Notes under the pieces: model-generated | What the model saw: only the letters and a program-made list of their open reading frames with translations | Told to the model about the DNA's origin: nothing | Databases searched by the model: none | DNA from: Actinocatenispora sera | GTDB taxonomy: Bacteria; Actinomycetota; Actinomycetes; Mycobacteriales; Micromonosporaceae | Length of the DNA: 64,000 nt | Reading direction: 5' to 3' | Assembly: GCF_018324685.1 (NCBI RefSeq) | Contig: NZ_AP023354.1 | Span: forward strand, 3,534,001-3,598,000 | Shown: positions 15,242-64,000 of the stretch, piece by piece | Numbering within the stretch: the first letter of the stretch is position 1 | Layout of the letters: the number at the start of each line of letters is the position of its first letter | Translations under genes and position numbers: made by a program

Positions 15242-16711
15242 GTGATCAGTGTGCCTCAACCATATCGTCGGGTCGTCGGCGGGCAGTTGAGCCGGTTCCG
15301 GCGGGACTTTTATGCGTGTTTGACGTCCCGGGCCGATGGCCTGTTCGAGGCGTGTGACGCCTTGTTGTGTGTCGATGGGCCGGTGCGGTCGTTGCCGGAG
15401 TTGTCGCTGGCCGGAGTCCACCGCCGTGGTCACGGTGGTCTGTATGGCGCGCTGGCGGCTGGCCGTATCGACTCCGATCGGTTGCGGCAAGCGATGTTGG
15501 GGTGCACGTTGCCGCGGGCGGGTGATGGGCGGATCGTGCTGGCGGTGGACGTGACGTGTTGGTTGCGGCCCGAGGCACATACCAGTCCCGGCCGGATGAT
15601 GTGTCATACCTACGGTCGTGGCAAGGATCAGCACATCGGGGTGCCGGGCTGGCCGTGGTCGGTGGTGGTGGCGTTGGAGACCGGACGGTCGTCATGGACC
15701 GCGCCGTTGGACGCGGTCCGGTTGGCTCCGGGTGAGGACGCGGCGGCCGTGACCGCTTACCAGCTACGGCGGGTCGTGACCGGCCTGATCGAGGCAGGGC
15801 ATTGGGATGCCGGTGATCCGGAGATCCTGATCGTGGCCGACGCCGGCTACGACGGTCCCCGCCTGTCGTTCGTGCTGGCCGATCTGCCGGTGCGGGTGCT
15901 GGTGCGGATGCGTTCCGACCGGGTCCTACGCCGAGCGGCTCTGTCTGATCGTCGGCATACGGTGGGCCGGCCGTGCCGGCACGGCAGCGAGTTCGTGTTC
16001 GGCCAGACGGCAACCTGGGGCGAGCCCGATGTCCAGATCTCCACCGACACCAGGCATTACGGGCCGGCGCGTATCCGTGCTTGGGACCGTCTGCATCCGC
16101 GGTTGACGCACCGCACCGCCTGGGCCGCGCATACCGGCGATCTGCCGGTGCTGGAAGGCACCGTCATCCGCCTCGACGTCGAGAGGCTGCCCTCGGGCGC
16201 GATCCCGAAACCGGTGTGGCTGTGGCATTCGGCCACCGACCTGGACCCTGGGCAGGTCGACCTGGCATGGCAGGCGTTCCTGCGCCGCTTCGACATCGAG
16301 CACACCTTCCGCATGCTCAAACAGACCCTGGGCTGGACCTGCCCGAAACTACGCGACCCGGCCGCGGCCGAACGCTGGACATGGCTGGTGCTGGCCGCCT
16401 ACACCCAACTACGCCTCGCACGAAACGTCGCGGCGGACCTGCGTCGGCCGTGGGAGAAACCCCTCCCGCCACAGCGGGTGACCCCGGCACGCCTCCGGCG
16501 AGGGTTTCGATACCTGCACCCGCGGCTGCCTCCTCTAGCGGCTGCGCCGAAACTCTGCCGGCCCGGGCCAGGACGCCCAGCCGGGCACCCCAACCAACGG
16601 CCAGCCGCCCGCCATGACGTGCACACGGCGTCCAGACCGGACCGACCCAAACCGCATCGCCACAAACCTAAGAAGCCGTCGGCCACGCCACGACCCCGAC
16701 GAACAGGTTAA
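15242..16711 (+). CDS. DDE transposase of insertion sequence
   Basis: A 489-residue transposase. The start GTG at 15242 (MISVPQPYRRVVGG) has AAGGG 5 bases upstream. Likely catalytic acidic residues are in LAVDVTCW, IVADAGYDG and FDIEHTFRMLKQTLGW, giving a DDE triad of the IS4/IS701 kind. The C-terminus is Pro/Arg/Lys-rich and the TAA stop falls within the right inverted repeat. Less biased codon third positions than neighbouring genes (for example TTGTTGTGTGTC) mark it as acquired. Intact and probably active, given the identical second copy. Confidence 0.93.
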   Translation: MISVPQPYRRVVGGQLSRFRRDFYACLTSRADGLFEACDALLCVDGPVRSLPELSLAGVHRRGHGGLYGALAAGRIDSDRLRQAMLGCTLPRAGDGRIVLAVDVTCWLRPEAHTSPGRMMCHTYGRGKDQHIGVPGWPWSVVVALETGRSSWTAPLDAVRLAPGEDAAAVTAYQLRRVVTGLIEAGHWDAGDPEILIVADAGYDGPRLSFVLADLPVRVLVRMRSDRVLRRAALSDRRHTVGRPCRHGSEFVFGQTATWGEPDVQISTDTRHYGPARIRAWDRLHPRLTHRTAWAAHTGDLPVLEGTVIRLDVERLPSGAIPKPVWLWHSATDLDPGQVDLAWQAFLRRFDIEHTFRMLKQTLGWTCPKLRDPAAAERWTWLVLAAYTQLRLARNVAADLRRPWEKPLPPQRVTPARLRRGFRYLHPRLPPLAAAPKLCRPGPGRPAGHPNQRPAARHDVHTASRPDRPKPHRHKPKKPSATPRPRRTG

Positions 16712-17869: not shown

Positions 17870-19669
17870 TCAGGCGAGGTCGGCGCAGCGGGCGGCGTGT
17901 CGTCGGATCAGATCGTTCCACTCGTAGCGGCCCGCGCCGCGCTGCTGGACCAGGTACATCGCCGCCAGCGTGTCGAGCATCCGGGACGCAACGTCCGCTG
18001 ACCCACCGAACACCGCTGGCGCATCCTCGACCCGCAGTTCGGTGCCCGGGTAGCGGCCCAGCTGCCGGTACGCGGCGGCGGTCTTCGCGTCGAGCGCCCG
18101 GTACGACCAGTCCAGGACGGCGGCGAGATCGGTGTCGGTGCCTTCGTGCGTCGACAGCACGTCGAGGCCGCTCACCGTCGTTGGCTCGCCCGGCATGGCG
18201 ACCCCGGTACGGGCGATTCGTTCACCGATGATGCGCAGTGCCAGCGGCAGCCCGGCGCACCGTTGCACGAGATCGGTTGTGACCTGCGGGGTTAGTGATC
18301 CAGGGGAGAGACCTGCGGCGGCGCACAGCAACTCGGCAGCCGCGTCCGCCTCCAGCTCGGCCACCTCGACGCGGTGCGCGCCGTCCCGGGCGACCAGACC
18401 GCGCAGCTGCTTGCGGCTGGTGACCACGGTGGCGGCGGTGGACCCGCCGCCGGGCAGCAACGGTCGGATCTGGTCGCTGTCGCGGGCGTTGTCGAGGACG
18501 ACGAGGACCTGGCGCTCGGCGAGCATGCTGCGCAGCAGGGCCCCGGCCGACCGGATCTCGGTCGGTACCGCGTCGGTCGGTACACCCAGTGCGCCGAGCA
18601 GGATGGCGAGCGAGTCCTCCACCCGCAGGGGCGGTGCGTCACCGTAACCGCCGAGATCGAGGTAGAGCTGTCCGTCCGGGAACCGGCCCCGGATCCTGTT
18701 GGCCCACCAGAGCGCAAGCGCCGTCTTGCCAGCGCCCGCCGGACCGACCACGGCTGCCAGGGTGCTGTCCCCGGCCGCCAACCAGTCGTCGAGCGCCGCC
18801 AGTTGAGGGTCCCGCCCGATCAGCCGACCGCTCGGCGCGGGCAGCTGGCGCGGTGGAACCTGCGCGACCGGCGTCGAACCGGAGGTGCAGTGCACCGGCA
18901 TCGGCGGACCCGGCTCCCGGGCTGGTACGGCCGATTCGGTGCGCAGGATCTCCGAGTGCAGATCGCGAATCGTGGTGCCAGGATCGACGCCCAGCTCGTC
19001 GCGCAGCACCTGCCGCAGCTGCTGGTAGACCATGAGCGCGTCGGCCCGCCGACCGCTGCGGAACAGCGCGAGCATCAACTGGCCGGCCAGGGTCTCGCGG
19101 AACGGGTTGGCGCGCACCAGATCCGACAGTTCGACGATGAGCTCGGCGTGGCGACCGAGCCGCAGGCAGAGTCGGGCCCGTTCTTCGTGGGCATCCAGGT
19201 ACCGGTCGGTGAGGTGGTCGATCGTGTGCCGGTACAGCGCCGACGCGTCGAGGTTGCCGAGCAGTGGCGGGCGCCACAGGGCGAGCGCCTCGCTCAGCAG
19301 GTCCACCGCGGCCTCCGTGGCGCCACGCAGTTCCGCGTCCGCGGCGGCGGTGGTGAGCTGGTCAAACAGCAACAGGTCGTGATGCGCCGCGTCGGTAACC
19401 AGCTGATACCCGGAACCCTGGGTCTGGATGACGGAGCGGCCGAGCAGCTGGCGGACCCGTGAGATGCCGTTGTGCAGCGCGGAGCGGGGATGACTCGGTG
19501 GCTGGTCGCCCCACACCCACTCCGCAAGCCGGTGCCAGGAGACGACCTCGTTGGGCGACAACAGAAGCCCGGCGAGCAGCGTCAGGACACGGTTGCCGCC
19601 CAGGGGTACCGGCTGGCCGGCACGCCAGGCCTGGACCGGTCCGAGAACCCTGAATTCCAGCTCTGCCAC
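17870..19669 (-). CDS. AfsR/SARP family transcriptional regulator with NB-ARC domain
   Basis: A regulator of about 599 residues. Order: an OmpR-like winged helix at about 1-95 (LEFRVLGPVQAW, PRSALHNGISRVRQLLG), a bacterial transcriptional activation domain at about 100-245 (DELGVDPGTTIRDLHSEIL), and an NB-ARC ATPase from about 280 with Walker A GPAGAGKTALA, VLVVLDNARD (Walker B) and GLPLALRI. No TPR array follows, so it is a shorter AfsR type. GTG at 19669 gives the canonical AELEFRVLGPV start and avoids overlap with the next gene; longer starts reach 19789. SARPs activate biosynthetic operons, and it sits just downstream, same strand, of the isoprenoid gene pair. Confidence 0.9.
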   Translation of the reverse strand: MAELEFRVLGPVQAWRAGQPVPLGGNRVLTLLAGLLLSPNEVVSWHRLAEWVWGDQPPSHPRSALHNGISRVRQLLGRSVIQTQGSGYQLVTDAAHHDLLLFDQLTTAAADAELRGATEAAVDLLSEALALWRPPLLGNLDASALYRHTIDHLTDRYLDAHEERARLCLRLGRHAELIVELSDLVRANPFRETLAGQLMLALFRSGRRADALMVYQQLRQVLRDELGVDPGTTIRDLHSEILRTESAVPAREPGPPMPVHCTSGSTPVAQVPPRQLPAPSGRLIGRDPQLAALDDWLAAGDSTLAAVVGPAGAGKTALALWWANRIRGRFPDGQLYLDLGGYGDAPPLRVEDSLAILLGALGVPTDAVPTEIRSAGALLRSMLAERQVLVVLDNARDSDQIRPLLPGGGSTAATVVTSRKQLRGLVARDGAHRVEVAELEADAAAELLCAAAGLSPGSLTPQVTTDLVQRCAGLPLALRIIGERIARTGVAMPGEPTTVSGLDVLSTHEGTDTDLAAVLDWSYRALDAKTAAAYRQLGRYPGTELRVEDAPAVFGGSADVASRMLDTLAAMYLVQQRGAGRYEWNDLIRRHAARCADLA

Positions 19670-19736
19670 GGCACCATCATCCTCGGGGGAAAGTCTGCGT
19701 TTCGTGCGCACCACGTGGATGAAAGCGGGCAGCGCG

Positions 19737-21767
19737 CTATGTGCCAGATGTGCCTGATTCATGACGAAGTGGCGAGGTGAGGGCCGCAAGGCTGTGTGTG
19801 GCCAGGCGCCGTGCTGTCTCGTCGGTCAGGTCCGCCGCGGCCGCCGCGGCGGCGGCCTCCCGCCGGCCGGCTGCCCTGGCGCGCGCGAGTACGGCTGCGC
19901 GTAGGCCGGGGTCGTCGCGGAGCGTCGATTCGGAGACGTGAACCCCGCCGACCTGTGCGGGTACCGCGGTGAACCCGCCGGATCGCATCGCCGCCCAGGT
20001 GGTGTCGAGCCGCGTGGGTTCGCCGCGAACCGCGAGTACGTCCTCGGTGTGCAGGAACGCCCGGCCGTAGCGATTCCCGAACTCCTGCATCGCCCGCACG
20101 GTGCTGGCCACGCCGCCGCCGAGGTACGTCCCGATGCGGGCGGGGAACTCGAACAGGGAGCCGTAGACGTCCAGTGCCACCTCGGGCCCGCGACCGCGCG
20201 CCCGTAGGTGCGTCAGGTCGGCGAGCCAGTCGGCGAATGCCCAGGACACTTCGGGCGCCGACTCGGCGATCAGGCGCGACGCCTGCGCAAGCAGAAAGTC
20301 GCCGGACAGCACCGTAGCGGTCTGCGCCCAGTCGATACCGCGACCGGAGGGTCGGGCGCCGGGCTGCCAGAGGAACGCCAAGGCACCGAGCATGGCGAGC
20401 TCCACCGCGGCGGCGGTGGTGGCCCGGCGGGACGGCGGTACCCGGGTCGAGGCCGTCAGCCCGGCCAGAAACAGCAGCGCGGGGCGGAGTTGCTGACCTC
20501 CCAACGTGCCGTCGGATGTGGCCAGCTGGGCCAAGAACGGCCAGGTGGTCTGCACCGTTCGGACCAACACCTCGTCGCAGGCGAGCAGAAACGGCATGGC
20601 AAACGACGCGTCGACGGGGTCGAGGTCTGCACCCGTGGCCACGGCGCCGGTGACCCCGGACGGCAGCAGGACGGCTCGCCGCGTCTTGGCGAAGAACGGC
20701 TGGTCGCTGTCGGCGGCGGCGGACAGCACGCGCCAGGTCAGGTGATGTCGCCGGGTCGCATGTCGGGCGATCTCGAAGCGACCCAGGAACCTGGCGGCGG
20801 CGCGTTGCACGTAGTGGCGTCGCGCCGCTGCGGGATCGTCCGGATGCGTGCCGATCGCGGCGGCAGCGAGGCGTGCGCTGTGCACCGCGTAACCCAGGGT
20901 TTCACCAGTAAACGGGTTGGCCAAGCCGGCCGCCGCGCCGATCAGGAGTCCGTTCGCCGCGACGAGCCGTTGCCGGGAAAAGCCGGTGTGTAGCCGACCG
21001 GCCTGGGCCTTTCCCGCGTCGGTCAGTCCGGCGTACCGGGCATCCAGCTCGGTCAGTGTGGCCCGGCCGACGGCCAGCAACTGCGCCGGATCCAGCGGCC
21101 GAGTCGTCGGCACCGGGCAGGCCACCCCGAGCGTCCCGGCTCCGGCACCGGTCGGCAACAACCAGACACTCACCGGTACTCGTTGCTGCATGGTCGGCAC
21201 GGCCAGCGCCAGAAGCACGGCGTCGGTGTCATCCGGCATGCCCGACACCCGGACCGACACCATCGAGCCGGTCGGTTGGCCGCCCCCGCTGGGGGAGTTC
21301 GCCGCGCCCTCCCGACCGCCGTTCGGTGCGCACCCGACGGCGAGTACCAGGTGCCGGGCCTGAACCGACACCAGCACGGAGAGGCCATCGACCCGGATTC
21401 GATGCACACCGTCGAGCTGGCCAGTGACAGTTCCCACGCCGGGGAGGGGCTGGGCACCTGCCTCGATCGCAGCCGTGCGCAGGGTCGCTCGCAACGCACC
21501 GACCGGCATGACACGGCCGCCGGTGCCGGTGACCCGCCGGCACGAATCCGGTCGCAGCCGCAGATCGACCGCATCGACGTGATGCCCCGCGAGCTCGATG
21601 TCCAGCGACGACAGATCGGCCTCCGCTGGACCACTCACGTAGAGGTCATGATCGGCGGGCGCCGGGGGGTGGTCGATCAGCAACACCGACCGCCCGGCCC
21701 GGGCGAGCACCGTCGCGAGGACACATCCGGCCGGGCCGGCGCCGAGGACGGCGACGTCGGCGATCAT
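19737..21767 (-). CDS. geranylgeranyl-reductase-like flavoprotein fused to degenerate polyprenyl synthase domain
   Basis: A 676-residue two-domain protein. Residues 1-370 are a geranylgeranyl-reductase-type FAD oxidoreductase: GAGPAG at 9-14 and GAAAGLANPFTGETLGYA at 277-294, where most relatives have GDAAG. Residues about 390-620 follow the all-helical trans-polyprenyl synthase fold (GGQQLRPALLFLAG at 423-436, AAAVEL at 451-456), but both Asp-rich motifs are gone: LGALAFLW replaces the LIHDDVVD region, and EDVLA at 575-579 replaces DDxxD. The synthase half should be inactive and is probably a partner-binding module. Its ATG overlaps the stop of the intact synthase gene (ATGA), which suggests a complex making a reduced isoprenoid; that role is inference. 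Confidence 0.8.
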   Translation of the reverse strand: MIADVAVLGAGPAGCVLATVLARAGRSVLLIDHPPAPADHDLYVSGPAEADLSSLDIELAGHHVDAVDLRLRPDSCRRVTGTGGRVMPVGALRATLRTAAIEAGAQPLPGVGTVTGQLDGVHRIRVDGLSVLVSVQARHLVLAVGCAPNGGREGAANSPSGGGQPTGSMVSVRVSGMPDDTDAVLLALAVPTMQQRVPVSVWLLPTGAGAGTLGVACPVPTTRPLDPAQLLAVGRATLTELDARYAGLTDAGKAQAGRLHTGFSRQRLVAANGLLIGAAAGLANPFTGETLGYAVHSARLAAAAIGTHPDDPAAARRHYVQRAAARFLGRFEIARHATRRHHLTWRVLSAAADSDQPFFAKTRRAVLLPSGVTGAVATGADLDPVDASFAMPFLLACDEVLVRTVQTTWPFLAQLATSDGTLGGQQLRPALLFLAGLTASTRVPPSRRATTAAAVELAMLGALAFLWQPGARPSGRGIDWAQTATVLSGDFLLAQASRLIAESAPEVSWAFADWLADLTHLRARGRGPEVALDVYGSLFEFPARIGTYLGGGVASTVRAMQEFGNRYGRAFLHTEDVLAVRGEPTRLDTTWAAMRSGGFTAVPAQVGGVHVSESTLRDDPGLRAAVLARARAAGRREAAAAAAAADLTDETARRLATHSLAALTSPLRHESGTSGT

Positions 21768-22717
21768 GCCGATTCGGGCCAGATCATGGCCGCCACCTCA
21801 GTCAGCGAGGTACGCCGCGGCGAGTCGACGCCGTCGAGCGCGGCCAGCGCGATCTGGTAGCGGTCCTGGGCAAGCTCATGCGCCGCGGCGAGGCCACCAC
21901 TCGCGGTCACGTGCGCCCGCACCGCGGGCAGGTCGTCACGGTCGAACGCCGGATCGAGAAGCAGCGTGGCAAGTTCGCCGGTACCGTCAGCGGCCAGCGC
22001 GAACAGGGTCGGCGCACCGAACAAGCCGAGCAGATGATCGGTCCCAACGGGCTTGCCGGACTCGATCGTCGCCAGGTCCAGACAGTCGTCGAGGATCTGG
22101 AACGCCACACCGAGCTCGGCGCCGAAGCGCCCGGACGCGGCCAGCGTGCCGGAGTCCGCGCCCGCTGCAGCGGCACCGAGCGAACAGCTGAGCCGGAACA
22201 GGTCGCCCGTCTTGCGTTCGACCAGTTCCAGGTAGTCCGGGAGGGACAGGTCGATGTCGAAGGCCCGCTCCACGTCGAGGATCTCCCCGTACGCGAGTCC
22301 GGCCGCGGCGCGTGCGACCACCGTTTCGAGGCCGTCACCGAGTTCCGCCGCCTCCCGGCCGGCCAGCGCGAAGCACGCCAGACCGGCGAGGGTCGCGAGC
22401 TCGTCGCCCACCGTCGCTCGGGCGCTCGGCGCACCGCGCCGGCTCGTACCCCGGTCGACCACGTCGTCGTGCAGCAGCGATGCCAAGTGGAGCAGTTCCA
22501 CCAGCGCCGCGAGCCGGACGAGATGAGGGTTCGTGGCGCCGACCGCGGCGGCGTGCAGGAGCACCGAGCGCAGCCGCTTGCCCGGGCGCTCGGCGAGCGC
22601 GCGCACTGGTGTACCCAGTGGTTCGGGCACTGCCGCGGTAAGTTCGCCGAGCCGGGCCCCCGTCAGCGCGATGAACTCCGCGCGCGCCCGCGCTGAGACC
22701 GTTGCCGTCACGTCCAT
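21764..22717 (-). CDS. polyprenyl (trans-isoprenyl) diphosphate synthase
   Basis: A 317-residue class I prenyltransferase. The substrate-binding PGKRLRS is at about 45-51, the first Asp-rich motif HDDVVD at 83-88, and the second is ILDDCLD near residue 213. Both motifs are intact, so it should condense allylic diphosphates with IPP. Product length cannot be fixed by eye: residues before the first motif are LHLASLL, with no bulky aromatic at the usual chain-limiting position. The first gene of the operon, it is translationally coupled to the reductase/pseudo-synthase fusion, its likely partner. Confidence 0.92.
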   Translation of the reverse strand: MDVTATVSARARAEFIALTGARLGELTAAVPEPLGTPVRALAERPGKRLRSVLLHAAAVGATNPHLVRLAALVELLHLASLLHDDVVDRGTSRRGAPSARATVGDELATLAGLACFALAGREAAELGDGLETVVARAAAGLAYGEILDVERAFDIDLSLPDYLELVERKTGDLFRLSCSLGAAAAGADSGTLAASGRFGAELGVAFQILDDCLDLATIESGKPVGTDHLLGLFGAPTLFALAADGTGELATLLLDPAFDRDDLPAVRAHVTASGGLAAAHELAQDRYQIALAALDGVDSPRRTSLTEVAAMIWPESA

Positions 22718-22910: not shown

Positions 22911-24215
22911 GTGCGACGAAACCTCCGACCGAGAGTCCCGTTCCGGGTGATGACGATGGCTGCAGCTGCGCTGCTCGCCGTCGTCGGGCTCGCCGTCGCG
23001 CCGCCTTCGGCGTCGGCGGCGCCGCCACCGATGCCGCTCGTAGCGCCGCCGCAGCTGCCCGACAACGCACGGCCGGTGTGCGGTCCCGTGCTGCCCGGCT
23101 ACGTGCACTGCGACGCGTTCGTACGCACCGACAGTGCAGGGTCCGATCCCACCGACCCGCAAGAACCGGCGGCCGGGGAACCGGTACCCAGCGCGTACCG
23201 ACCGGCGGACCTGCAGGACGCCTACGGCCTCCCGTCGGCCACGGCCGGCGGCGGGCAGACCGTCGCGGTCGTCGACGCATACGACGATCCCAAGGCGGAG
23301 TCGGATCTGGCGGTCTACCGGGCAGCCTTCGGGCTGCCGCCGTGCACGACCGCCAACGGCTGCTTCCACAAGGTCAACCAGCGTGGTGAGACGAAGAACT
23401 ACCCCGCGCCCGACAGGCACTGGGGAATGGAGATCTCGCTCGACCTTGACATGGTCTCGGCGATCTGCCCCCGGTGCCACATAGTGTTGTGGGAGGCGGA
23501 TCAAGCCTCGCAGGAGGATCTGGCGGCTGCCGCCCACCTGGCCGGTTGCGACTGCACCTCGCCGGCCGGCACCAACTACGGCGCGCGGTACGTGTCCAAC
23601 AGCTACGGCGGTCCCGAGGCGGGCTTCAGCGCCAGTGTCGACGACTCGTACAGATCGGACAAGGGGACGGTCTACACGGTGTCGTCCGGCGACAGCGGTT
23701 ACGGGGTGGAGTATCCGGCGTCGTCGAAGTGGGTGACGGCCGTGGGCGGGACCTCGTTACTGCCCGCGGACAACGCCCGCGGCTGGGACGAGATCGCCTG
23801 GCTCTACGGCGGTTCCGGGTGCTCGACATACGTGGCGAAGCCGGCGTGGCAGCACGACGGCGGGTGCAGTGGCCGCAGTGTCGCAGACGTCGCCGCAGTC
23901 GCCGATCCCACTACCGGGGTCGACATGTACGACAGCTACGAGACGGTTGACTACAACGGTCCATGGCTGGTCAACGGTGGTACCAGCGCCGCGTCACCAA
24001 TCATCGCCGGGGTGTACGCGCTCGGTGCGAAGGTGTTGCCCGGCACGATCCCATCGACCTACCCGTACGCGAAGTTCACCCAGCTCAACGACATCGTCGG
24101 CGGTACCAACAGCTTCGAGAACTGCTCTCCCGAGTATCTGTGCAACGCCGGGCCGGGATACGACGGCCCGACCGGGTACGGCACGCCCCACGGCGTGGCC
24201 GCGTTCCAGGAGTGA
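22911..24215 (+). CDS. secreted S53 family (sedolisin-like) serine peptidase
   Basis: A 434-residue exported peptidase. A signal peptide runs to about ASAAPPP. There is no long pro-domain, unlike many sedolisins. The catalytic Glu and Asp lie in HWGMEISLDLDMVSAICP and the nucleophilic Ser in NGGTSAASPIIAG; the oxyanion Asp is probably in SSGDSGYG. Several Cys pairs suggest disulphides. AAAGGAG at 22899-22905 sets the GTG start at 22911. It is divergent from the isoprenoid operon and convergent with the trypsin-like protein, with a strong terminator between. Confidence 0.88.
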   Translation: MRRNLRPRVPFRVMTMAAAALLAVVGLAVAPPSASAAPPPMPLVAPPQLPDNARPVCGPVLPGYVHCDAFVRTDSAGSDPTDPQEPAAGEPVPSAYRPADLQDAYGLPSATAGGGQTVAVVDAYDDPKAESDLAVYRAAFGLPPCTTANGCFHKVNQRGETKNYPAPDRHWGMEISLDLDMVSAICPRCHIVLWEADQASQEDLAAAAHLAGCDCTSPAGTNYGARYVSNSYGGPEAGFSASVDDSYRSDKGTVYTVSSGDSGYGVEYPASSKWVTAVGGTSLLPADNARGWDEIAWLYGGSGCSTYVAKPAWQHDGGCSGRSVADVAAVADPTTGVDMYDSYETVDYNGPWLVNGGTSAASPIIAGVYALGAKVLPGTIPSTYPYAKFTQLNDIVGGTNSFENCSPEYLCNAGPGYDGPTGYGTPHGVAAFQE

Positions 24216-24254: not shown

Positions 24255-25883
24255 TCAGCCCGCGACGACCGGGCCGACGATGTTCACCGACGGCAATGTT
24301 GCGAGCTGGTCGTAGACGGTCTGGAACACGCCCGGGTCGTTCATGTAGTCGATGATCTGCTGGTAGTTCATGCCCACGGTGTTAGCGACGACGCCGGTCA
24401 GGAGGGTGTAGGCCACCTGCGCCTCGTCCTGGTCCAGCACCGGTTGGATGCCGGCGCCGCCGGTCATCCCGGCGAACATGAACTCGAGGTCGTCGATGTT
24501 CTCCTGGGTCATCGTGGCGCCGGAGTCAGGGTTGGCCAGGACGGTGGCGACCAGGGTGCGGTACTTGTCGTAGTACTCCTTGGCGTATCCGATCGCGACG
24601 CCCTCGGCCTCCTTTCCACCGAGCCGGTCGATGACGGTCTGCTGGTTGAGATAGATCGCGCCGATGAGCAGGTTGCCCAGCGGGCTCTGGGCGAGAAACT
24701 GGTCCCTGGCCTGTGAGGTCAGGTCGTTGTCGTCAGCCAGCGGCAGGTCGTAGTAGTGGCCGACGGTGGCGAGCAGCTCGCAGTTCGACGTGGGCGGCTC
24801 GGGCTCCTGAACGAATGTTCGCCCGTTGCCGCCGGCGAGAACGAGGGCGCCGGAGTCGCCGGGTAGGCAGAACGCCTGGGACCAGATCTGGTCGGTGAGA
24901 GTGACGTACTTGAAGCCGTAGTCGATCTTCACGATGGCTGCGAGCGCGGTCACCATGCTCGAGGTGTAACCGGACGCGTGGCCCACCTTCTCGATGTGCG
25001 AGAACAGTTGCGGTGCCGCGATGCAGCTGTGCTCGTCGTCGGCGACCGACAGTTCGACGTGCAGCGCGTCGACGATGTGATCCATCCGGGAGATGAACGA
25101 GTTGACGTGTCGTTGTAGGGGGTCGGTGTCGCTGGCGGTGATCATGCCGATAGCCGGATGGGTGGCGGAGATCGGCGCCATCAGGCCGTCGGCGACGCCG
25201 AGGTCGGCGGTGACGCCGGAGTTGAGTACCCCGATCGCCGCGTCGACGGTGGCGGTCGTGCCCAGCTCGCTGAACCGGCGTACGGTGCCGATCGCGTCGT
25301 TACTGCCCCCACCGTCCTGCCTGGCCGGCTGGTAGATCGCCTCGCCGAAGGCCGGCTGATCGACCCGGGCGAGCACCGAGTTCGATGACAGGAAGCAGAT
25401 CCTGCCGTCGTTGTTGTCGAGGTCCCGGACGAAGCAGCCCAACGTGCCGGACAGCGAGCCGGTCGCGTTGGAGATCCCCGCACCCTGGACCGGGTCGGTG
25501 AACTTCTTCCGGATCGGGTCGTTCACCGCGTTCGGTTTCGCCGCTCCGGCATCCGGGCCGGGCCGATAGGACGCGTTCGCCACCGCGGGCAGGCCGGGAT
25601 GCCGCAGCGGGCGGACCTCGACCACGTCGACGCCCCACCGGCGCCCGTCGACCTCGATCGTCGCCGGCACCATGCGGTGCAGCGGGATCTGCCCCTCCGC
25701 CAGCTTCTTGCGCACCATGGCGATCACGACAGGTTCGTCGACGTAGTCGCCGGCGCGGTGCCGCATCCCGATCGCCGCACCGGTGAAGTGCGGGTCGTCC
25801 CGGAAGACCCGGAACAACTTGCGCTGCGCGCGGATCAGCGACGCCTGTACGTCGGCGTCGAACACCATCGGTTCCAGTTTCAT
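24255..25883 (-). CDS. trypsin-like fold protein lacking catalytic His
   Basis: A 542-residue protein without a clear signal peptide. The middle has trypsin-like landmarks: GTLGCFVRD, then FLSSNSVLARV at about 164-174, VDAAIG with Asp214, and LPGDSGALVLA with Ser344. Related proteins read SNNHVLA at the first site, so Ser169 stands where the catalytic His should be. The protein is either inactive or uses other residues. The C-terminal 200 residues (NLLIGAIYLNQQTVIDRLGG onward) are helical and unrecognised. AGGAGG precedes the ATG at 25883, which overlaps the upstream gene stop (ATGA). Confidence 0.7.
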   Translation of the reverse strand: MKLEPMVFDADVQASLIRAQRKLFRVFRDDPHFTGAAIGMRHRAGDYVDEPVVIAMVRKKLAEGQIPLHRMVPATIEVDGRRWGVDVVEVRPLRHPGLPAVANASYRPGPDAGAAKPNAVNDPIRKKFTDPVQGAGISNATGSLSGTLGCFVRDLDNNDGRICFLSSNSVLARVDQPAFGEAIYQPARQDGGGSNDAIGTVRRFSELGTTATVDAAIGVLNSGVTADLGVADGLMAPISATHPAIGMITASDTDPLQRHVNSFISRMDHIVDALHVELSVADDEHSCIAAPQLFSHIEKVGHASGYTSSMVTALAAIVKIDYGFKYVTLTDQIWSQAFCLPGDSGALVLAGGNGRTFVQEPEPPTSNCELLATVGHYYDLPLADDNDLTSQARDQFLAQSPLGNLLIGAIYLNQQTVIDRLGGKEAEGVAIGYAKEYYDKYRTLVATVLANPDSGATMTQENIDDLEFMFAGMTGGAGIQPVLDQDEAQVAYTLLTGVVANTVGMNYQQIIDYMNDPGVFQTVYDQLATLPSVNIVGPVVAG

Positions 25884-26587: not shown

Positions 26588-27781
26588 CTAGCTGAAGGCG
26601 GTGAGGGTCAGGTGCAGGGCGGTCGGCGCGCCGTCCTCGATGTACGAGGCGAAGCCGCCGACGTCGTCGAACGGGAACCCGTACGCCCTGCCGTCGGTCA
26701 TGTGCGCGTGCATGATCCGCGCGTAGTGGTTGGTCGGGTCGGTGGCGTAGAAGCCGGCCGGGTCGTCGGTCGGCTGGCTGGCCGAGGCGAGCAGGGTGGA
26801 GCGGTTGAAGCCGGCGCCGAGCGCCGCGGCCACCGGGCCGGTCAACCCGTCGTTCGGTGCGGCGAGCGCGCCGGCGCAGAAGAACACGTCCGAGGTGGTC
26901 GGCTTCGAGATGGGGGCGACCGCGCCGTCGAAGGTGAACACACCGCCGGTGACCCGGCCGGTCCGGTCGGCGCCGCCGGTGTGCACGGTGAGCGTCTCGC
27001 CGGCGTACTTCGACCAGACGTCGTCGAGGTAGCCGTCGAAGTAGTCGGCGGCGAACCGGCCGACCTCGATCCCGTGCCCGGGCGCGATGACGCGCAGGTC
27101 GTCGAGCACCAGCGAGCCGAACCCGGCCTGGGCGGCCACCTCGGCGAAGATCCTTCCTCGTCCGCCGGCTTCCAGCGTCCCGGTGGTCTGGTCGGCGGCG
27201 CCGACCAGGTGCACCGACGACGGCACGCCGAACATGTCGACCTGGGTGTTGTTGCAGTGCATCCCGGAGCCGTCGTAGGTGAACTCGAAGAAGTCGTGCA
27301 GCACCGGGTAGTTCGGGTCCGACTCGACCCAGCCGGCCGGGTACGCCAGCGCCGGGTTGCCGTTGCCGTCCGGCACCGCCTTGAACCTCAGCGGGTCGCC
27401 GAGCGCGAAGTAGATCCGGCCGGACATGTGCGGCAGCGCGATCGTCGTGTCGCCGCTGCCGGCGAGCGGGATCGAGTAGTCGGTGTAGCCGTCGGATCCG
27501 TTGTCGGACAGCGACACCGGGATCAGGTTGCCGCCCGCGTCGGCGTGCGCCTGGGCGCCGGTGGCGAGGTCGGTGCCCACCACGTACAGCCGGACGGCGT
27601 CGTTGCCGGCCGCGCCGGAGTCGTTGGTGACGGTGACCGCCAGGGTGCCGTCCGCGAACGGTCCCCGGGTACCGGCGGCAGCCACCGACGGCGCGCCGAA
27701 CGCGGCGACCAGCGGCGCTCCGATCGCGCCGAGCGCGAGGCCGCGCAGCAGCGATCGGCGGGGTACGGGGGTGTCGGACAT
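26588..27781 (-). CDS. GH64 family endo-beta-1,3-glucanase, Tat-exported
   Basis: A 397-residue secreted glycoside hydrolase family 64 enzyme that cleaves beta-1,3-glucans such as laminarin or fungal cell walls. PRRSLLRGLALGAIG is a twin-arginine signal. The thaumatin-like core includes HMSGRIYFALG, and the likely catalytic acid/base pair is the Glu in DFFEFTYDG and the Asp in NTQVDMFGVPSSVHL. AAAGGAG precedes the ATG at 27781. It follows the LacI gene by 37 bp on the same strand, so it is probably the regulated gene of a two-gene operon. Confidence 0.93.
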   Translation of the reverse strand: MSDTPVPRRSLLRGLALGAIGAPLVAAFGAPSVAAAGTRGPFADGTLAVTVTNDSGAAGNDAVRLYVVGTDLATGAQAHADAGGNLIPVSLSDNGSDGYTDYSIPLAGSGDTTIALPHMSGRIYFALGDPLRFKAVPDGNGNPALAYPAGWVESDPNYPVLHDFFEFTYDGSGMHCNNTQVDMFGVPSSVHLVGAADQTTGTLEAGGRGRIFAEVAAQAGFGSLVLDDLRVIAPGHGIEVGRFAADYFDGYLDDVWSKYAGETLTVHTGGADRTGRVTGGVFTFDGAVAPISKPTTSDVFFCAGALAAPNDGLTGPVAAALGAGFNRSTLLASASQPTDDPAGFYATDPTNHYARIMHAHMTDGRAYGFPFDDVGGFASYIEDGAPTALHLTLTAFS

Positions 27782-62660: not shown

Positions 62661-64000
62661 GTGATCAGTGTGCCTCAACCATATCGTCGGGTCGTCGGCG
62701 GGCAGTTGAGCCGGTTCCGGCGGGACTTTTATGCGTGTTTGACGTCCCGGGCCGATGGCCTGTTCGAGGCGTGTGACGCCTTGTTGTGTGTCGATGGGCC
62801 GGTGCGGTCGTTGCCGGAGTTGTCGCTGGCCGGAGTCCACCGCCGTGGTCACGGTGGTCTGTATGGCGCGCTGGCGGCTGGCCGTATCGACTCCGATCGG
62901 TTGCGGCAAGCGATGTTGGGGTGCACGTTGCCGCGGGCGGGTGATGGGCGGATCGTGCTGGCGGTGGACGTGACGTGTTGGTTGCGGCCCGAGGCACATA
63001 CCAGTCCCGGCCGGATGATGTGTCATACCTACGGTCGTGGCAAGGATCAGCACATCGGGGTGCCGGGCTGGCCGTGGTCGGTGGTGGTGGCGTTGGAGAC
63101 CGGACGGTCGTCATGGACCGCGCCGTTGGACGCGGTCCGGTTGGCTCCGGGTGAGGACGCGGCGGCCGTGACCGCTTACCAGCTACGGCGGGTCGTGACC
63201 GGCCTGATCGAGGCAGGGCATTGGGATGCCGGTGATCCGGAGATCCTGATCGTGGCCGACGCCGGCTACGACGGTCCCCGCCTGTCGTTCGTGCTGGCCG
63301 ATCTGCCGGTGCGGGTGCTGGTGCGGATGCGTTCCGACCGGGTCCTACGCCGAGCGGCTCTGTCTGATCGTCGGCATACGGTGGGCCGGCCGTGCCGGCA
63401 CGGCAGCGAGTTCGTGTTCGGCCAGACGGCAACCTGGGGCGAGCCCGATGTCCAGATCTCCACCGACACCAGGCATTACGGGCCGGCGCGTATCCGTGCT
63501 TGGGACCGTCTGCATCCGCGGTTGACGCACCGCACCGCCTGGGCCGCGCATACCGGCGATCTGCCGGTGCTGGAAGGCACCGTCATCCGCCTCGACGTCG
63601 AGAGGCTGCCCTCGGGCGCGATCCCGAAACCGGTGTGGCTGTGGCATTCGGCCACCGACCTGGACCCTGGGCAGGTCGACCTGGCATGGCAGGCGTTCCT
63701 GCGCCGCTTCGACATCGAGCACACCTTCCGCATGCTCAAACAGACCCTGGGCTGGACCTGCCCGAAACTACGCGACCCGGCCGCGGCCGAACGCTGGACA
63801 TGGCTGGTGCTGGCCGCCTACACCCAACTACGCCTCGCACGAAACGTCGCGGCGGACCTGCGTCGGCCGTGGGAGAAACCCCTCCCGCCACAGCGGGTGA
63901 CCCCGGCACGCCTCCGGCGAGGGTTTCGATACCTGCACCCGCGGCTGCCTCCTCTAGCGGCTGCGCCGAAACTCTGCCGGCCCGGGCCAGGACGCCCAGC
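62661..64000 (+). CDS. DDE transposase, partial at window end
   Basis: Same 489-residue transposase as at 15242-16711; the first about 446 codons are present and intact, including all three putative catalytic acidic residues. Only the basic C-terminal tail and stop are outside the window. Confidence 0.93.
   Translation, partial: MISVPQPYRRVVGGQLSRFRRDFYACLTSRADGLFEACDALLCVDGPVRSLPELSLAGVHRRGHGGLYGALAAGRIDSDRLRQAMLGCTLPRAGDGRIVLAVDVTCWLRPEAHTSPGRMMCHTYGRGKDQHIGVPGWPWSVVVALETGRSSWTAPLDAVRLAPGEDAAAVTAYQLRRVVTGLIEAGHWDAGDPEILIVADAGYDGPRLSFVLADLPVRVLVRMRSDRVLRRAALSDRRHTVGRPCRHGSEFVFGQTATWGEPDVQISTDTRHYGPARIRAWDRLHPRLTHRTAWAAHTGDLPVLEGTVIRLDVERLPSGAIPKPVWLWHSATDLDPGQVDLAWQAFLRRFDIEHTFRMLKQTLGWTCPKLRDPAAAERWTWLVLAAYTQLRLARNVAADLRRPWEKPLPPQRVTPARLRRGFRYLHPRLPPLAAAPKLCRPGPGRP

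Follow-up and report, generated by a model that had tools for sequence, protein, structure and literature searches.

We consider it moderately probable that two overlapping genes of Actinocatenispora sera, one for a live synthase and one for a fusion protein that carries a dead copy, together specify a single polyprenyl synthase that functions only as a hetero-oligomer. As far as comparison of sequences can tell, the pair is real, recurrent and under selection in the relatives tested. The genes lie in the 64,000-nucleotide stretch of A. sera DNA analyzed here (the window), where they and their neighbours are arranged as follows:

21764..22717, minus strand: live trans-polyprenyl synthase, 317 aa (PF00348, 1.3e-48)
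19737..21767, minus strand: the fusion, ATG start, 676 aa; flavoprotein at about residues 1-375, dead synthase at about 384-668
20643..21767, minus strand: geranylgeranyl reductase (GGR)-like FAD half of the fusion, GAGPAG at residues 9-14, GAAAGL at the GD motif
19740..20618, minus strand: pseudo-synthase half of the fusion, helix-E GDFLLAQAS at residues 489-497
17870..19762, minus strand: SARP regulator with an NB-ARC domain, 3' of the fusion (BTAD 2.1e-41, NB-ARC 1.3e-11)
22911..24215, plus strand: subtilase-like peptidase, divergent from the synthase (PF00082 8.7e-8 for 22914-24215)
24255..25883, minus strand: NARROW-LEAF-1-like (NAL1-like) trypsin-fold protein, 542 aa
25880..26455, minus strand: TAT158, small all-helical protein with a Tat-like start, overlapping the NAL1-like gene

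The initial annotation had described a 676-residue reductase/pseudo-synthase fusion whose start codon (ATG) lies across the stop codon of an intact synthase gene, with a SARP activator behind it on the same strand, and all of this holds: GG-red-SF and MenJ match the N-terminal half and a nonaprenyl synthase the C-terminal half, both reading frames are open and share the sequence ATGA at 21764-21767, and the SARP domains are found (BTAD 2e-41). The start at 19669 given there for the unit needs correction, as this position is one of two candidate start codons of the SARP gene (19762 or 19669) and the fusion ends at 19737. On re-inspection of the flanks no cyclase or quinone gene was seen adjoining the pair, in agreement with that description, which had overlooked the two peptidase-like neighbours and the Tat-signal protein. 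The start codon of the subtilase-like peptidase (22911) was picked by eye, and its hydrophobic start, likewise judged by eye, suggests that the protein is probably exported. Past the TAT158 gene lies a glycoside hydrolase family 64 beta-1,3-glucanase (26591-27781; PF16483 4.6e-97). Elsewhere in the window, the predicted genes at 15596-16711 and 63015-63998 have identical first 60 residues (MMCHTYGRGKDQ...) and mark a repeat that may be an insertion sequence.

The live synthase belongs clearly to its family, with a PF00348 score of 165.9 bits against a cut-off of 27 and intact GKRLR, HDDVVD, KT and DDCLD motifs; at the position of the helix-E Asp it has Leu (L113). The residues leading into its first Asp-rich motif are small (LASLLHDD), which we take to suit a medium or long chain product. 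In the C-terminal half of the fusion the catalytic Asp-rich motifs are absent: FLWQ stands in place of the first and EDVLA in place of the second, GK is replaced by GQ and KT by VY, so that the loss of both Asp-rich motifs and of the GGKRLRP Lys, as first reported, is borne out. This motif reading used ordinary rows from a biased set together with the genus of A. sera, and the column counts quoted below come from a separate alignment.

The concern raised in the initial annotation, that the C-terminal half might not have a polyprenyl synthase fold, is answered by two comparisons, on which the evidence for homology is based: residues 421-584 match a solved nonaprenyl diphosphate synthase (2e-7), and a profile of the dead halves (A1) aligns with the ordinary synthase profile over 273 columns (hhalign probability 99.7%, E 2.9e-27). 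The single-sequence Pfam score is 22, under the PF00348 cut-off of 27. By these profile and sequence matches the C-terminal half is homologous to the trans-polyprenyl synthase family. In an AF2 model of the whole fusion, built from a 27-sequence alignment (mean pLDDT 86, pTM 0.86), the first half is of mixed fold and the second consists of helices only; because the alignment contained synthases, the model is no independent proof of the synthase fold, and no synthase appears among the 50 Foldseek matches listed for the whole model, which are ranked by whole-chain E-value.

The fusion is rare and scattered among soil bacteria. In the family of A. sera, 11 of 354 genomes have matches at E 1e-20 or better. 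Fusion-level matches, which in the class sample means 1.7e-77 or better, the remaining matches being 6e-39 or weaker, occur in 2/394 genomes of that sample, A. sera included, and the phylum sample yields one genome in 396, A. sera itself. The three other genomes of the A. sera genus give weak matches only (1e-12). The fusion is present in 6 of 250 genomes in the family of Streptosporangium canum, one of them with two copies, in 3/246 genomes in the genus of G525, and once among 72,556 plasmid records (Rhodococcus oxybenzonivorans). A first wide scan with the A. sera protein alone as query found no relative; a wide scan with profile A1 succeeded, and since only the best 80 of 339 loci were used, many of them ordinary synthases, weaker fusions may be missing. 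Hosts identified by profile scanning and checking of neighbours include Micromonospora (loci checked as G147 and G195), Nonomuraea, Rugosimonospora, Streptosporangium, Actinosynnema and Actinomadura, as well as Actinoplanes, Herbihabitans, Amycolatopsis and a Chloroflexi MAG. Literature searches among open PMC papers listed no title or abstract start that names such a fusion.

We compared the neighbours of 28 distinct fusion loci by tblastn. The live synthase is present at 27 of them, the exception being a 3.7-kb contig that starts inside the fusion, and at 25 of the 28 it is adjacent to and co-directional with the fusion; at 2 of the 27 the two genes are divergent and about 4.8 kb apart. Homologues of the fusion usually lacking an adjacent synthase, the other outcome that would have spoken against the initial annotation, is therefore contrary to what the 27 synthase-containing and 25 adjacent loci reveal, and live and inactive homologous subunits are encoded together, by which a heteromeric synthase is recognised, at 27/28 loci. 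The NAL1-like protein accompanies the fusion at 21 of the 28 loci, a TAT158 relative at 14, a PKD-domain protein at 8 and a SARP at 4 (A. sera, and a relative near the fusion in three others). At several loci the genes for TAT158, the NAL1-like protein, the synthase and the fusion overlap one another or directly adjoin. Other peptidases of different classes (subtilase-like, M4), probably exported, stand at 6/28 loci and were identified by Pfam except for one in L022; relatives of the A. sera subtilase-like peptidase lie near the fusion in L022 and L023, the one in L022 having no Pfam match and being recognised solely by its likeness to the A. sera protein. An S8 peptidase with no signal obvious by eye occurs together with a 150-aa protein at 2/28 loci, the Rhodococcus plasmid (L021, 9137-14070) and L187 (genus g70), where both genes stand 5' of the synthase and occupy the place that the NAL1-like gene has in other loci. 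At the Chloroflexi MAG locus (L034, 905-1294) the opposite strand encodes a protein weakly related to the 150-aa one (57 bits). Behind the second fusion copy in genome G1239 (L182, 3915-9445) come co-directional genes for a 185-aa protein, for an AMP-binding enzyme and an acyl-CoA dehydrogenase, and for two epimerase-like proteins; G1345 (L186) has genes that resemble those of L182 by their first residues.

The most informative feature of the pair is a reciprocal loss. Our alignment set 24 dead domains and 23 live partners against 56 ordinary synthases; omission of the near-copies G294, G198, G217 and G311 reduced the 28 loci to 24 sequences, the truncated contig contributes no live partner, and the Chloroflexi partner is partial. 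Among the columns that ordinary synthases conserve and that were flagged as retained by the live copies only are GK, most positions of both Asp-rich motifs, an Arg that follows the first motif, KT and the Gln that precedes the second motif. The helix-E Asp (GDxLLA) behaves in the opposite way: it is present in all 24 dead domains and in none of the 23 live partners, which have Leu (12) or Thr (11). Among ordinary synthases (56 of 57 loci gave a sequence) it is found in 53 of the 54 rows with a residue in this column, two rows being gapped and one (L163) having a residue other than Asp, a count that the retrieval of this set with the dead-domain profile may bias towards helix-E retention. The ordinary synthases among the 80 loci (L044-L111 hold 53 reading frames that have live motifs) had been fetched with a DFLLA-like pattern and were therefore kept out of the count, for which loci from the class and phylum samples were taken. 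The ordinary synthase of the A. sera genome itself (L005) has TGDYLF at helix E, and the two solved synthases, in an alignment with the live copy, have AGDF and VGDF. Only this one column is cleanly complementary, as a second column flagged as dead-only lies in an unreliable, gappy stretch; over the whole of helix E the dead and live copies resemble the ordinary consensus about equally (47% versus 46%). In the majority of trans-prenyltransferase structures, the dimer is formed by helices E and F (PMC7261888). From its place in the fold, the GDxLLA motif would be helix E and its Asp would lie at the dimer contact; in the portions of the trans-prenyltransferase literature examined, no role for this Asp was found. 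As opposite features have been lost, the live and dead copies may work only together.

The descent of the two domains is consistent with this. In a tree of 68 rows, the 21 dead copies fall on one side of a branch with support 99 and the 19 live copies are grouped with support 93, which for this quick method with SH-aLRT only falls under the 95 mark; dead and live copies together form one group with support 96. The tree omits seven further rows and takes only every other ordinary row; among the ordinary rows included, L163 and L114 have long branches. That dead and live domains are sister groups points to one old duplication, and the history is most simply read from the tree as one duplication, then fusion, then parallel descent. 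For the sister ordinary synthases, a fusion relative was absent from the surrounding stretches of the two loci examined. The copies of the pair in two Nonomuraea, S. canum and G1231 (L035, L036, L038, L185) differ by a low dS of 0.13-0.38, which may reflect transfer between genera.

Pairwise dN/dS in 16 close pairs is 0.11-0.27 for the dead half, 0.07-0.38 for the reductase half and 0.07-0.53 for the live gene; the pairs come from five Micromonospora-group genomes and four of Nonomuraea or Streptosporangium type, a set outside A. sera itself. These values indicate that the dead half is under purifying selection in the close relatives tested. They also bear on the idea that this is an ordinary cluster with a decaying duplicate, the C-terminal half being a functionless relic: the catalytic motifs are indeed gone, yet the constraint on the dead half in these relatives and the retention of the helix-E Asp in 24/24 copies from several families make decay highly improbable.

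The sequences show that a synthase gene was duplicated and that one copy kept the catalytic motifs, while the other is joined to a GGR-like flavoprotein and has lost them, the copies remaining paired. If the two proteins are halves of one enzyme, the dead domain would stand in for a subunit in the usual helix-E/F dimer of the synthase and supply the conserved helix-E side that its live partner lacks, and for this reason the live subunit is proposed to be stable or active only together with the dead domain. The flavoprotein would be held at the synthase through the place of the dead domain in the dimer. Less firmly, the growing or finished chain may be handed over to the flavoprotein, which might reduce it in lineages that keep the reductase motif and carry out a reduction or another redox step in the A. 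sera clade. Docking of the pseudo-domain onto the live synthase had been proposed in the initial annotation, and it is supported indirectly, by the reciprocal helix-E loss, the single duplication and the presence of the synthase at 27/28 loci. The dead domain could instead serve as a holder of the prenyl chain for its own flavoprotein, with the live synthase remaining a homodimer that makes the substrate. Such a role would suit a domain that keeps its helical bundle in the model and its family profile, and co-location could reflect pathway order only; however, it leaves unexplained both the loss of the helix-E Asp in 23/23 live copies against its retention in 24/24 dead ones and the sister relationship of the dead domain to precisely its partner synthase, and we consider it distinctly unlikely.

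What the flavoprotein does is a separate matter from the hetero-oligomer. The N-terminal half has the fold and the FAD-binding GxGxxG motif of the GGR family, and its best NCBIfam match is the GG-reductase subfamily GG-red-SF (TIGR02032, 4e-16), with 59.5 bits, below the curated cut-off of 158.8; MenJ matches at 1e-13 with a score of 51 against a cut-off of 700. The first Foldseek match of the fusion model is 3oz2, a GG-reductase-like protein, and the 50 matches listed include the Sulfolobus GGR entries 4opt and 3atq. The CG motif and a PxxYxWxFP-like stretch, which we take to be markers of the GGR family, are missing from the A. sera protein. The CG[DG] motif is present in 9/9 fusions outside the A. 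sera clade, which come from Micromonospora, genus g25, genus g70 (three), Rhodococcus and Chloroflexi and do not form one supported clade, and in 0/12 inside it, counted on the 12 of the 15 clade sequences that include the N-terminal part (tree support of the clade, from dead domains, 100). A. sera has PVSVWLLP where several fusions of other lineages have PSYGWVFP; the PxxYxWxFP-like pattern missed several rows, and this comparison was therefore taken from alignments. The GD motif is GA in A. sera, Rugosimonospora and Rhodococcus, its pattern being unmatched in three rows. Where the CG[DG] motif is kept, the chain is likely to be saturated. For A. sera, the partly saturated isoprenoid product put forward with the docking proposal is not supported, given the absence of CG[DG], the altered PVSVWLLP stretch and the lost Asp of the GD motif.

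There is a substantial possibility, which we place somewhat below even, that the flavoprotein of the A. sera clade is no longer a prenyl reductase and performs another redox step or a structural role, the product being unsaturated or otherwise changed. The clade-wide loss of CG[DG], the GA in A. sera, the GG-red-SF score below its cut-off and the halogenases and monooxygenases of the same superfamily that stand beside GGRs among the 50 Foldseek matches listed all agree with this, whereas the top NCBIfam and first Foldseek matches are of the GG-reductase type and GAGPAG is intact. The reductase half of two fusions, Actinoplanes KI2 (L023/L042) and G1239a (L181), contains a frame break, and one of these sits in a genome carrying a second, open copy; only their open parts were used.

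The NAL1-like protein of A. sera scores 23.8 bits against the NAL1_N model by hmmscan and 27.5 in the genome search (cut-off 27), and it matches plant NARROW LEAF 1 over residues 34-205 (6e-8). Of the catalytic His and Ser of the NARROW LEAF 1 family, the GDSG sequence is retained and the His position is Ser in A. sera (LSSNSVLA). The His is kept in 9 of 13 rows and lost in A. sera, Rugosimonospora and both Actinomadura copies (noted at A. sera 24255-25883 and loci L041 and L022), and owing to this loss the A. sera protein may bind rather than cut. The predicted fold of TAT158 has a confident core, and nothing in the PDB matched it at E 0.001 or better. We considered a defence system: PADLOC matched two PDC-M02B models to the A. 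sera TAT158 and one other model to one member, single-member matches among 10 relatives that we took as chance. The S8 peptidase of the Rhodococcus plasmid, also considered as a defence protein and rejected, matches subtilase and IetS models, as expected of a subtilase.

It is conceivable, and in our estimate fairly unlikely, that the locus is a protease-centred accessory system for regulated proteolysis or conflict, with TAT158 or another processed protein receiving a lipid anchor or signal from the prenyl enzymes. Searched with the NAL1_N Pfam model, 11 of 101 related genomes have a match, never more than one, and the sole match in the A. sera genome is the neighbour of the synthase; with matches so rare, the link between NAL1-like protein and fusion is unlikely to be due to chance. 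The presence of NAL1-like proteins at 21/28 loci, the S8 peptidase with its 150-aa partner at two more, the patchy distribution and the plasmid occurrence fit such a system, but no such protein is found at three loci of one genus and in the Chloroflexi MAG, the A. sera NAL1-like protein lacks the catalytic His, and the PADLOC matches to TAT158 relatives remain sporadic. A broader and rather doubtful proposal combines these elements into a mobile protease-linked lipid module, where an obligate heterodimeric synthase, its dead half bearing its own flavin reductase, would build and reduce the chain in one particle and provide a lipid to some protein on which the NAL1-like and Tat-signal partners act.

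Known systems resemble the proposed hetero-oligomer in part. In rice, the inactive synthase GRP heterodimerises with GGPPS1 and directs OsGGPPS1 to a GGR-containing complex (PMC9399743). As far as the available text describes it, this system likewise places an inactive partner beside a live synthase and links it to a GG reductase; there, the reductase is separate from the inactive subunit, whereas the bacterial fusion is one chain, and the bacterial synthase domains are distinguished as sister groups with reciprocal loss. In mint geranyl diphosphate synthase (LSU/SSU), a catalytic subunit and one lacking the Asp motifs are both needed for activity, and in the Micrococcus luteus hexaprenyl synthase (HexA/HexB) one subunit lacks the Asp-rich motifs and HexA may control chain length (PMC7839719); unlike for the A. 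sera pair, the passages available on these enzymes mention no fused flavoprotein or NAL1-like neighbour. MenJ-type GG reductases resemble the flavoprotein half, while the MenJ model (406 positions) covers a flavoprotein part with no synthase domain and the fusion has both. The NAL1-like neighbour matches the plant NARROW LEAF 1 protease over its own residues 34-205 and differs from it in being bacterial, in lying beside a prenyl synthase and in having lost the triad His in A. sera. Heteromeric synthases with an inactive subunit are thus already known, and an inactive subunit joined to a reductase is not among the precedents as far as their available text goes.

If the proposed assembly is correct, the pair would be a natural fused metabolon, in which evolution has split a homodimeric enzyme into one copy that works and one that docks, the latter serving to tether the next enzyme. 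The complementary helix-E change would provide a direct and testable handle on partner choice in prenyl synthases, within a small bacterial pair that lends itself to expression, and the recurrent NAL1-like neighbour would give a metabolic context to a bacterial relative of a plant protease.
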